NCBI GenBank assembly: GCA_018830405.1
Contig: JAHJSF010000157.1
Span: forward strand, 1 to 13,711
Direction of reading: 5' to 3'
From: Nitrospinota bacterium
GTDB lineage: Bacteria > Nitrospinota > Nitrospinia > UBA9942 > JAHJSF01
DNA length: 13,711 bases
A program made the translations under genes and the position numbers. The notes under the pieces are model-generated. The model was given only the letters and a program-made list of their open reading frames with translations, was not told the origin of the DNA and made no database searches. Shown here piece after piece: positions 4,129 through 12,940 of the stretch. Numbering within the stretch: the first letter of the stretch is position 1; each line of letters starts with the position of its first letter.

Positions 4129-4211
4129 ATTAGTGTGACGTTAATATTAAACAACAAACTCTAAACAAAACTCTCTACAAAACCCGCCAGAAGCGAGATT
4201 AATGTGGAGTT

Positions 4212-4383
4212 GCATTCAAAATGATAACAAGGCGGCAAGGAGAAAGCGACTCACAACCCCCTTATTCCCCCTTTTCTAAGGGGGAATTATGGGGGGAATT
4301 GCAGTAGAGTCCTCCTTGGAAAAGGGGCATCCAACGATTCCCCCTTAACAAAGGGGGATAGGGGGTTGTTAGCGTTTGAATGC
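4212..4383. repeat. Composite palindromic element between fabG and acpP
   Basis: About 172 bp bounded by the inverted repeat GCATTCAAA (4212-4220) / TTTGAATGC (4375-4383). A second inverted pair lies inside: ACAACCCCC (4253-4261) / GGGGGTTGT (4361-4369). Between them are two family-A core hairpins: ATTCCCCCTT/AAGGGGGAAT at 4264-4287 (perfect 10 bp, 4-nt loop) and CCCCCTT/AAGGGGG at 4340-4357 (loop AACA). It looks like two repeat units placed side by side. There is no open reading frame of note. The element occupies most of the fabG-acpP gap. Confidence 0.75.
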
Positions 4384-4396
4384 CACTTCGCATAAA

Positions 4397-9447: not shown

Positions 9448-10650
9448 CTAAGAAAGCAAAACATCCTTATTATCCCCGAATACCGCACCGGCAACCTTTA
9501 TAATCTCCTCGCCCGTTACCCCATGTATCAAAGAGTAGACCTCCTCAAACTCTCGGTAATTGCCAAGCAGATAGTTTATAGCGTAATAGAGCACATATCC
9601 GGTACTTGTCTCGGTACTCATAGCCAGCGACGAGGTATAATCAACCTTGGAGATATCTATCAATTTTGACTCGATCCCTTTCTTTTTAACATCATCAACT
9701 ATCTGATAAATAAGCCCTTTAGCCATATCGAGATTGTTCTTGGAAAGATTAGTGCCGATAGCCAGAGCCGAGAAGTTATCGAAAGTTCCCATCTCCCAAG
9801 CTCCTATACTGTAGCATAACCCCTTCTCCTCCCGTATCTCCTTAAAGAGGAGGGAATGCATACCGCCGCCAATAGCATTAAGGAGTACCTTTTGGGCATA
9901 GTAGAGCGGGTCTTTCTTCCCGAATCCCTTGTACAGGAGAATGGAGTAGGCCTGCTGAAGATTTTCTCTCTCAACCGACAGAGGGGTGAAATTAAAGGCA
10001 ACATCCTCGGAGAAAAACTCCTTTTCACTCTTCTCAGCCTGCGGGACATGTCTTGATATGGTATCAACCACCTCATCCCTATCGACATCGCCGCAGACGG
10101 AAATCAGGACATTATTCCCCCGGTAATTTTTATTTATAAACGACACCAGATCATTGCGGGTGATGGAGGCGATACTCTCCAGGCTCCCTATTATGCGATG
10201 CCCCCTGTTGGGAGAAAGGGCATGCTCGACAGCCTCCTCCGTAATAAAATTCTCATGGTCATCTATATTGCTCTTGGCCTCCTCAAGGATAACATTACGC
10301 TCCTTGGCAATCTCCTTCTCATCAAAGACTGAATTAAAAAAGATATCGGACAATATCTCAAAGGCCTCCCCCCAATTCATCTTGATAATACGGATATAGT
10401 AGGAGACGACCGATCTGGAGGTAAAGGCGTTGATCTGCCCGCCGATAGAGGCCACCTCGTCGCTTATGTCGAGATAGCTCCTCTTATTAGTCCCCTTAAA
10501 TATCAGGTGTTCTACAAAGTGGGCGGTCCCGAAGCTCCGCTCCGACTCCTCCTTCTCAGCACCGGCCAGAACAGTAAAACGGATATCAACAATCTTGCTA
10601 CTGTTACGCTGATAGAAGGTCTCCCACCCGTTTATATTAAGTATCTCCAT
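9448..10650 (-). CDS. M16 family zinc metallopeptidase
   Basis: Insulinase/processing-peptidase family enzyme (M16B type), 400 aa with two homologous lobes, as in bacterial single-chain subunits that dimerise. The inverted zinc motif HFVEH (H44, E47 catalytic, H48) is complete, and the third zinc ligand is the Glu of VILEEA (E123 or E124). The second lobe holds REEKGLCYSI, the substrate-binding R/Y motif. All catalytic residues are present, so it should be active rather than a regulatory subunit. There is no signal peptide, which points to the cytoplasm. The substrate is unknown. It stands alone between two repeat-rich or regulated gaps, and an upstream palindrome lies 13 bp before the start. 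Confidence 0.92.
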   Translation of the reverse strand: MEILNINGWETFYQRNSSKIVDIRFTVLAGAEKEESERSFGTAHFVEHLIFKGTNKRSYLDISDEVASIGGQINAFTSRSVVSYYIRIIKMNWGEAFEILSDIFFNSVFDEKEIAKERNVILEEAKSNIDDHENFITEEAVEHALSPNRGHRIIGSLESIASITRNDLVSFINKNYRGNNVLISVCGDVDRDEVVDTISRHVPQAEKSEKEFFSEDVAFNFTPLSVERENLQQAYSILLYKGFGKKDPLYYAQKVLLNAIGGGMHSLLFKEIREEKGLCYSIGAWEMGTFDNFSALAIGTNLSKNNLDMAKGLIYQIVDDVKKKGIESKLIDISKVDYTSSLAMSTETSTGYVLYYAINYLLGNYREFEEVYSLIHGVTGEEIIKVAGAVFGDNKDVLLS

Positions 10651-10662
10651 TATGCTGTCTTT

Positions 10663-10831
10663 CTATACAACCCCCTTTGTATAGCTCCCCTCCTATTTTA
10701 GGAGGGGTGGCCGAAGGCCGGGGTGGTAAGTTTTCCAAACCAACCACCCCTGCCCCTCCTTAACCAAGGAGGGGAGCTTGTAGGCTACCCCCTTTGATTC
10801 CCCCTTTGTTAAGGGGGATTGAGGGGGTTGT
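10663..10831. repeat. Family-A palindrome interrupted by another element
   Basis: The left arm CTATACAACCCCCTT (10663-10677) is identical over 15 bp to the arm at 12813-12827. The right part is the core hairpin TCCCCCTT/AAGGGGGA (10799-10818) followed by GGGGGTTGT (10823-10831). The two parts are separated by the element at 10680-10786. Deleting 10680-10796 gives an uninterrupted ACAACCCCC-TTTG-ATTCCCCC-core-GGGGGTTGT palindrome like the other copies in this window. Confidence 0.75.
10680..10786. mobile_element. Small palindromic inserted element with 10-bp flanking duplication
   Basis: About 107 bp with strong inverted arms AGCTCCCCTCC (10683-10693) and GGAGGGGAGCT (10768-10778), an internal hairpin CTCCCCTCC/GGAGGGG and an inner pair GGGGTGGT / ACCACCCC. 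ACCCCCTTTG occurs on both sides (10670-10679 and 10787-10796), as expected of a target duplication. There is no coding capacity, so any movement would need a transposase supplied elsewhere. The outermost few bases of the inverted ends are imperfect (TATAGCT against AGCTTGTA). Confidence 0.65.
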
Positions 10832-10853: not shown

Positions 10854-12425
10854 CTACTTACCAAAACCTCCGAATAACCTTTTTAATATACCGCCGGATC
10901 TCTTCTTCCCCCCTTTGGCCAAGGTAAAATCCTCCCCATACTTCTCTTTGTAATGGGCCAGACGGGCCTCGACCGACTTGGGAGGGATTTGCTTTCCGGA
11001 CGGCTTTTTATGCTCTCCGTTGTTAGAAGGCTTTTTGACAGTCTGCTTCTTTTCAAAGTCGGCCTTTTTCTCAAAATCAGGCTTCTTCTCAAAGTCCCGC
11101 TTCTTTTCAAAGTCGTCTTTCTTTTTTCCGGCATGCCTATCCTCGTCACTCCTGTTATGGGCTCCGTGAGATTTTTCTTTGTCTTTATAACTATGCTTGG
11201 GATATCCTTTATTATCTGAAAATTTCTCCCTCTCTTCCGCCCTATCCTCTTTAATCCTGCTACGGCTGTACGAACCGGCCTTATCCTCAACCATATCGGC
11301 GGCCTCTATCCACTCACTCTCAATCTTCTTCTCTATATATTTTTCTATATAAGGGAGATTTATAACATGGTCCTCGCAGCCCAAACTGTAGGCCACGCCG
11401 CTATGCCCGGCCCTGGCGGTTCTGCCTATCCTATGGACGTAGGTAGCCGCCTCCTGCGGGAGGTCGTAGTTTATAACATGGGTAATGCCATCGATATGAA
11501 GACCCCTTGAGGCCACATCGGTAGCCACCAGAATTCTTATCTTCCCATCCTTCATGTCGTCTACAATCCGCTTTCTTTTATCCTGATTTATATCCCCGGT
11601 AAGAACCTTACTCGGGAAACCATTCTCCTCAAGCCTCCAGCCAACCTCCTCGGCCGTGCACTTCATATTGGTGAAAATAAGTACCCTCTCCGCCTCCGGT
11701 CTCTTTAGAATAGACATAAGGACGGGAAGCTTCTCCTCGTTGGAAACATAGATAATCCTCTGATGAATCGAATCGACCGTAATCTGCTCCGGCTCAATCT
11801 CAATCATCAACGGGTCGGCCTTCATATACTTAAGGGCCAGCCTGTGGACCTGGCTGTCTATGGTGGCTGAACAGAGTATAGTCTGCCTATCGTTATCCCT
11901 CGGCAGGTTGTTGGCAATATAATATATGTCAGATACAAATCCCATATCAAACATCCTGTCCGCTTCATCGATAATAAGCTGCTCTATCGCATCGAGTGAA
12001 ACAATATGCGACTTATAGAGGTCTATCAACCTACCGGGGGTGGCCACAATAATGTCGACTCCCTCACTGAGGGGCTTCTCCTGCTTTCGATATTCGACAC
12101 CACCATATATGGCCAGTGAACGGTATGGGAGATACTTTCCCAGCTTTACCGCATCCTCATAGACCTGCTCGGCCAACTCGCGTGTCGGAACCATAATCAA
12201 AGCTCTCGGCACACCGGGCGCTTTCCCCTCTGTTATCAGCTTATTAAAAATGGGGAGAAGAAAAACAGCCGTCTTCCCCGTTCCCGTTTGGGCCTGGGCA
12301 ATAATATCCTTCCCCAGCATACTCTCAGGCAAGGCCTGTTCCTGTACGGGGGTGCACTTCTCGAAACCGGCATCGGCCAGTCCCTTCAATATCTTTTCAT
12401 CTAAATTTAAACTATCAAACCTCAT
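10854..12425 (-). CDS. DEAD-box ATP-dependent RNA helicase
   Basis: A 523-aa RNA helicase of the RhlE/RhlB-like group, acting in RNA remodelling, ribosome assembly or decay. Motifs appear in order: Q-motif FEKCTPVQEQALP (21-33), Walker A AQTGTGKT (45-52), PTRELA (80-85), TPGR (129-132), DEAD (153-156), SAT (186-188), and HRIGRTAR (331-338) in the second RecA domain. After about residue 375 a basic, low-complexity tail carries four DFEKKx hexapeptide units and ends in EKYGEDFTLAKGGKKRSGGILKRLFG. I start at the ATG at 12423-12425, preceded by AAAGGA, because the longer frame begins at TTG and lacks conservation. The subfamily is not certain. It is followed by repeats and preceded by a 770-bp gene-free stretch. 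Confidence 0.96.
   Translation of the reverse strand: MRFDSLNLDEKILKGLADAGFEKCTPVQEQALPESMLGKDIIAQAQTGTGKTAVFLLPIFNKLITEGKAPGVPRALIMVPTRELAEQVYEDAVKLGKYLPYRSLAIYGGVEYRKQEKPLSEGVDIIVATPGRLIDLYKSHIVSLDAIEQLIIDEADRMFDMGFVSDIYYIANNLPRDNDRQTILCSATIDSQVHRLALKYMKADPLMIEIEPEQITVDSIHQRIIYVSNEEKLPVLMSILKRPEAERVLIFTNMKCTAEEVGWRLEENGFPSKVLTGDINQDKRKRIVDDMKDGKIRILVATDVASRGLHIDGITHVINYDLPQEAATYVHRIGRTARAGHSGVAYSLGCEDHVINLPYIEKYIEKKIESEWIEAADMVEDKAGSYSRSRIKEDRAEEREKFSDNKGYPKHSYKDKEKSHGAHNRSDEDRHAGKKKDDFEKKRDFEKKPDFEKKADFEKKQTVKKPSNNGEHKKPSGKQIPPKSVEARLAHYKEKYGEDFTLAKGGKKRSGGILKRLFGGFGK
11043..11114 (-). repeat. Four 18-bp tandem units in the helicase tail
   Basis: Four consecutive 18-bp units encode DFEKKR, DFEKKP, DFEKKA and DFEKKQ (residues 438-461). 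The sixth residue varies and synonymous changes separate the units at the DNA level, so the array is not freshly duplicated. It makes a charged, probably disordered RNA-binding segment. Copy number could vary between strains. Confidence 0.85.
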
Positions 12426-12497
12426 AAAAATCCTTTCTAAAATAAATCCCTTCCTCCTACCCAAACTTGCAAGATATTTCGTTGCCTGGGTAACGGA

Positions 12498-12740: not shown

Positions 12741-12940
12741 TAGTGCTTAATTGCCTAAATCTTGCTGTAGTCGACCGGCCTTTGGCGTGCCTGGCTTTGT
12801 TGCCAATCCTCGCTATACAACCCCCTTATTCCCCCTTAACAAAGGGGGATGCTGGGGGGTTATATACTGTGGTTGTCTTCGCGCCAGCCGCGCCAAATTC
12901 TCGGTCTTGGTACTGACGCAGACTTAGGCAACTAAACACC
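12741..12940. repeat. Long palindromic element centred on a family-A core
   Basis: A 200-bp imperfect palindrome centred near 12840. Matching arms include TTGCCTAA (12751-12758) / TTAGGCAA (12924-12931), TTTGGCG (from 12781) / CGCCAAA (near 12891-12897), and CTATACAACCCCC (12813-12825) against GGGGGGTTATATA to the right. The centre is the CCCCCTT-AACA-AAGGGGG hairpin at 12831-12848. The match may extend weakly outward to the GGTAGT and ACTACC at about 12716 and 12964. There is no coding capacity. Confidence 0.65.

Follow-up and report, generated by a model that had tools for sequence, protein, structure and literature searches.

Genomic setting and the interrupted palindrome

The window (the whole 13,711-bp stretch analysed here) belongs to a 1.42-Mb assembly in 185 contigs that is 87% complete. 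The site of interest lies in the 203-bp gap that separates two minus-strand genes, from the start of one for an M16 peptidase (9448-10650), which is only ∼30% identical to its counterparts in relatives of the same order, to the end of one for a DEAD-box helicase (10854-12464). Direct reading of the plus strand shows that this gap contains the decamer ACCCCCTTTG twice, at 10670-10679 and again at 10787-10796; the two copies are exactly 107 bp (10680-10786) apart. At the same 107-bp spacing, none of the other start points in the window yields an abutting direct repeat longer than 6 bp.

When the 107 bp and one copy of the repeat are excised, the flanks join into ACAACCCCCTTTGATTCCCCCTTTGTTAAGGGGGATTGAGGGGGTTGT, a complete palindrome of the CCCCCTT type (family A hereafter) that is one base off an intact copy in contig C162 (L019). 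The left fragment of the interrupted copy, ACAACCCCCTTTG (10667-10679, plus strand), matches the start of the C162 copy, and this 13-mer occurs at only two sites in the assembly, the present locus and C162; the remainder (10787-10831, plus strand) shows one difference from the matching part of the C162 copy (L019:647). Another A palindrome of the window, identified by a repeat search at 12817-12862 (plus-strand coordinates), is uninterrupted and lies on the strand opposite to that of the interrupted copy. The sequence CCCCCTTTG is an arm of palindrome A and recurs at 10800 and 10909, so that a match of the 10-bp motif is less surprising than that of a random 10-mer would be. Nevertheless, given the restored palindrome and the confinement of ACAACCCCCTTTG to two sites, the 107-bp segment, which carries a second repeat (doublet B), is likely to be a real interruption of A. 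Judging from the C162 paralogue, B was probably inserted into a pre-existing A, and the order in time proposed in the first-pass annotation, with B at this locus younger than the A copy that it interrupts, stands. The 169-bp composite, the recurrence of which as a single unit had been named beforehand as evidence against such an insertion, does not recur whole in a repeat search of the genome.

Structure and dispersal of doublet B

The inserted segment (10680-10786, plus strand) is represented in the assembly by 8 full-length copies on 8 contigs and ∼17 partial or mosaic matches. Comparison of the eight copies delineates a conserved core, AGCTCCCC...GGGGAGCTT (10683-10779, plus strand), which is an inverted pair of homologous hairpin units. 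Unit L (10683-10732, plus strand) consists of the hairpin CCCCTCCTATTTTAGGAGGGG, GGCCGAAGGCC, followed by GGGGTGGTAAGTT, with the overall composition CTCCCCTCCTATTTTAGGAGGGG, TGGCCGAAGGCC, GGGGTGGTAAGTT; its inverted homologue, unit R (10739-10779, minus strand), consists of ACCACCCC and the hairpin CCCCTCCTTAACCAAGGAGGGG, with the composition AACCAACCACCCC, TG, CCCCTCCTTAACCAAGGAGGGGAG. The 107-bp segment folds as DNA at -36.2 kcal/mol, compared with a mean of -17.5 for shuffled sequences (z = -7.0). Apart from the L-R order, the units are found in the R-L order (C11 and C83), singly (L at C34; R at C157:2985 and at the ends of contigs C3 and C173, both of which break inside B copies) and in rearranged mosaics (C25 and C175). 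The other seven full-length copies are 94-96% identical to the copy in the window, with 3-5 base differences in the core where the lengths match, and none of the eight lies inside an open frame. Doublet B is, therefore, a dispersed, extragenic pair of inverted hairpin units.

The ends of the insert implied by the 10-bp repeat do not coincide with the ends of this repeat family. They fall outside the conserved core, the outermost left bases and about seven extra bases on the right are absent from most B copies, and the inverted repeats AGCTCCCCTCCT/AGGAGGGGAGCT near the ends of B begin 3 bp (left) and 8 bp (right) inside the implied ends. Longer flank homology between the C51 copy and the window copy might have pointed to a larger moved unit, but this possibility was rejected because the homology is weak (right, p ∼0.05; left, none).

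The breaks of C3 and C173 inside B copies, in an incomplete assembly of so many contigs, raise the question of whether the contig is a chimera that joins two loci across the 107-bp repeat; this is highly improbable, given that the flanks add up to a single intact A palindrome, something that a chimera would produce only by coincidence, and that the B copy in the window has private bases.

None of the other genomes among the 77 searched in the class contains the exact doublet pattern. It is present in seven GTDB metagenome-assembled genomes, from Thermodesulfovibrionia, Nitrospirae, Acidobacteria, Desulfuromonadales and Bacteroidetes, and these related doublets are 55-85% identical to the window copy. 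Another genome of the same class (G007; L027, L034, L039, L041 and L043) contains more than 20 matches to single units of the form AAATTCCCCTCTTGAGAGGGGTGGCCGAAGGCCGGGGTGTGT, a one-hairpin relative of unit L. No match was obtained in Rfam, no doublet in IMG/VR and, in a literature search, no paper carrying the A sequence.

Family A and its proximity to unit R

About 150 sites on each strand of the assembly match the pattern of family A. Among the 106 ACAACCCC sites in ∼81 kb, two were flagged as orphan A arms; on reading, one of these seems to match by chance, whereas the other proves to be a compact hairpin. A arms without a hairpin are essentially absent from this sample. In contig C39 (L023:670-790), four A hairpins are arranged in tandem with a 34-bp period, and A units thus also amplify in tandem.

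Three loci, one in the window and the others in C25 and C173, have an A hairpin at a distance of 25-26 bp downstream from unit R, and C25 and C173 resemble each other at the junction. This clustering leaves room for another explanation, under which A and B are a recurring neighbour pair, the left A arm derives, as a stump, from a second A copy and the repeat is family sequence common to two A copies rather than one split target. The tandem units at C39, together with the fact that CCCCCTTTG is intrinsic to A, are compatible with such an arrangement, but the rare TTTG variant is found in the left stump and the right copy alike, the two A pieces overlap into one intact palindrome and there are next to no orphan arms elsewhere, all of which makes this explanation unlikely.

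Target duplication across repeat copies

The first-pass annotation had taken the locus as direct evidence that such repeat units duplicate their target. This generalization fails: flanking duplications, the lack of which at other copies the annotation itself had named as a refutation, are missing in 7/7 of the other full-length B copies of this genome and in 7/7 of the foreign doublets. For the former, no direct repeat between the 25-bp flanks exceeds 4-5 bp, similar to unrelated flank pairs, and a wider look, to 100 bp around these copies, revealed nothing abutting; for the latter, the longest end repeat is 3-5 bp, with the right end of L140 not reliably placed. Overall, a direct repeat of constant length at both ends of B is seen in 1/8 own copies and 0/7 foreign ones. 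The symmetric copies of A (n=26) have direct repeats of at most 2-6 bp at their ends. With the other own B, the foreign B and the A copies all devoid of duplications, duplication of the target is characteristic of neither A nor B, and for B-type units it is not supported at any junction beyond 10663-10831.

The exact, abutting 10-bp repeat would be a true target-site duplication if B were a MITE that a DDE transposase mobilizes in trans, with a staggered cut of ∼10 bp; the duplications around the other copies would then have decayed, or these copies would have spread by recombination. The repeat itself, of the kind left by a staggered-cut transposase and accompanied by a restored target, and the inverted repeats near the ends of B speak for this possibility. 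However, seven copies that differ from the window copy at so few core positions retain no trace of a duplication, the inverted repeats miss the implied insert ends on both sides and the 87%-complete assembly yielded no match to the PF01609 (DDE) transposases, so that this scenario appears unlikely.

Junctions of family A with family C

A further family, C, consists of 124-bp imperfect palindromes with the ends TACGGAGTTGCATTCAAA/TTTGAATGCGACTTCGTA, found in the window at 4202-4393, at L125-L129 and L136 and at other sites in the genome. Exact 3-bp TNA direct repeats surround 12 of 25 C copies, and the middle base is common to both flanks in 19 of the 25; these sequence features give C the appearance of a MITE that duplicates a 3-bp TNA target. 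Many C copies hold A in their apex. Six A-free copies (L125-L129 and L136) and the A-holding copies were compared against the C consensus. Between 15 and 52 bp of C are missing from the A-holding copies, the junctions fall into about five classes, and no C sequence is duplicated at any of them. The loss of C sequence and the variation of the junctions indicate that A joined imprecisely. Variable joins of this kind would also fit the B/A junction in the window, where 10 bp were gained, better than a fixed staggered cut.

Candidate enzymes

For the putative enzyme acting in trans that the first-pass annotation had proposed, the transposase families searched were PF01609 and Y1. The only IS200-like/RAYT gene detected in the genome, in contig C26 (L044:1369-2345), is assigned by NCBIfam to the REP-associated tyrosine transposases. 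It is flanked by GGGGTCAGGTCTTGCA repeats, which are unlike A and B, and this enzyme was set aside as a candidate mover of either repeat because the end repeats differ. The 18 Y1 loci of relatives have no recognizable A- or B-type flank, isolated motifs aside; GGGGTCA/TGACCCC motifs, similar to the flank repeats of the C26 gene, border some of the relatives' genes. The absence of a matching enzyme is weak evidence because the assembly is only 87% complete.

Relationship to known repeat classes

In its architecture, B resembles the REPINs/BIMEs (PMC3116915), with two inverted homologous hairpin units that are separated by a short linker and can fold as one long hairpin, a dispersed and extragenic distribution, units in alternating arrays and a tendency to nest within other repeats or next to them. 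REPINs that have inserted into, or adjacent to, other REPINs have been reported in P. fluorescens SBW25 (Bertels and Rainey 2011, PMC3116915). Unlike REPINs, B has few full copies (8) and lacks a conserved GTAG tag, with GTAG or CTAC near B in some copies only, at no fixed place, and no constant tag 5' of the hairpin. The REPIN/BIME class is, thus, the closest known kind, but B fits it only in part, as it has no conserved GTAG-type tag and the search yielded no cognate RAYT with matching ends. With MITEs, B shares a size of ∼100 bp, non-coding and dispersed character, inverted repeats near the ends and, in one copy, a direct repeat at the ends, whereas it differs from them in having no constant target duplication and in that its inverted repeats are not at the duplication-defined ends; family C of the same genome fits the MITE class much better. 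Single-strand elements of the IS200/IS605 type are not known to produce target duplications, and B is similar to these in its hairpin-ended DNA and in the absence of such duplications from most copies; it differs in that no recognition motif, cleavage site or matching Y1 transposase was identified for either A or B.

Origin of the junction and implications

The preferred interpretation, which we consider to have about an even chance of being correct, is that a REPIN-like doublet was imprecisely inserted into or beside another hairpin and that the 10-bp repeat is a by-product confined to this single locus. Under this scenario, B would spread in the manner of REPINs/BIMEs, with a hairpin-forming single strand handled by an HuH (RAYT-like) nuclease or, alternatively, through copying by template switching, and would land within or next to other hairpins, the joins being imprecise. 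The 10-bp repeat could have arisen if copying, on its return to A, resumed 10 bases upstream of the position at which it had left, and would then not be the mark of a transposase's fixed staggered cut. This interpretation is favoured by the restored A palindrome, the rare 13-mer common only to this locus and C162, the near absence of orphan A arms, the alternating inverted units of B, the lack of end duplications in the other B and A copies, the variable junctions of A within C and the 25-26-bp spacing between unit R and A at three loci. The exactness of the abutting 10-bp repeat and the failure to find a RAYT with A- or B-type ends speak against it. A broader proposal, that A and B are members of a single cross-phylum class of hairpin repeats (an ACMACCCC tag with a CCCCTCC-type hairpin, often in inverted doublets) which colonize each other's hairpins by replication-coupled, imprecise joining without a dedicated transposase, is speculative and, in our estimate, distinctly improbable.

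The region 10663-10831 appears to be a singular junction between ordinary REP-like repeats rather than proof of a target-duplicating transposon, and a single striking junction gives no warrant for family-wide target duplication. Nested repeats are natural junctions that record the gain or loss of target bases, and in this genome the record comprises variable joins of A (15-52 bp lost), one 10-bp gain for B and a clean 3-bp duplication for C.
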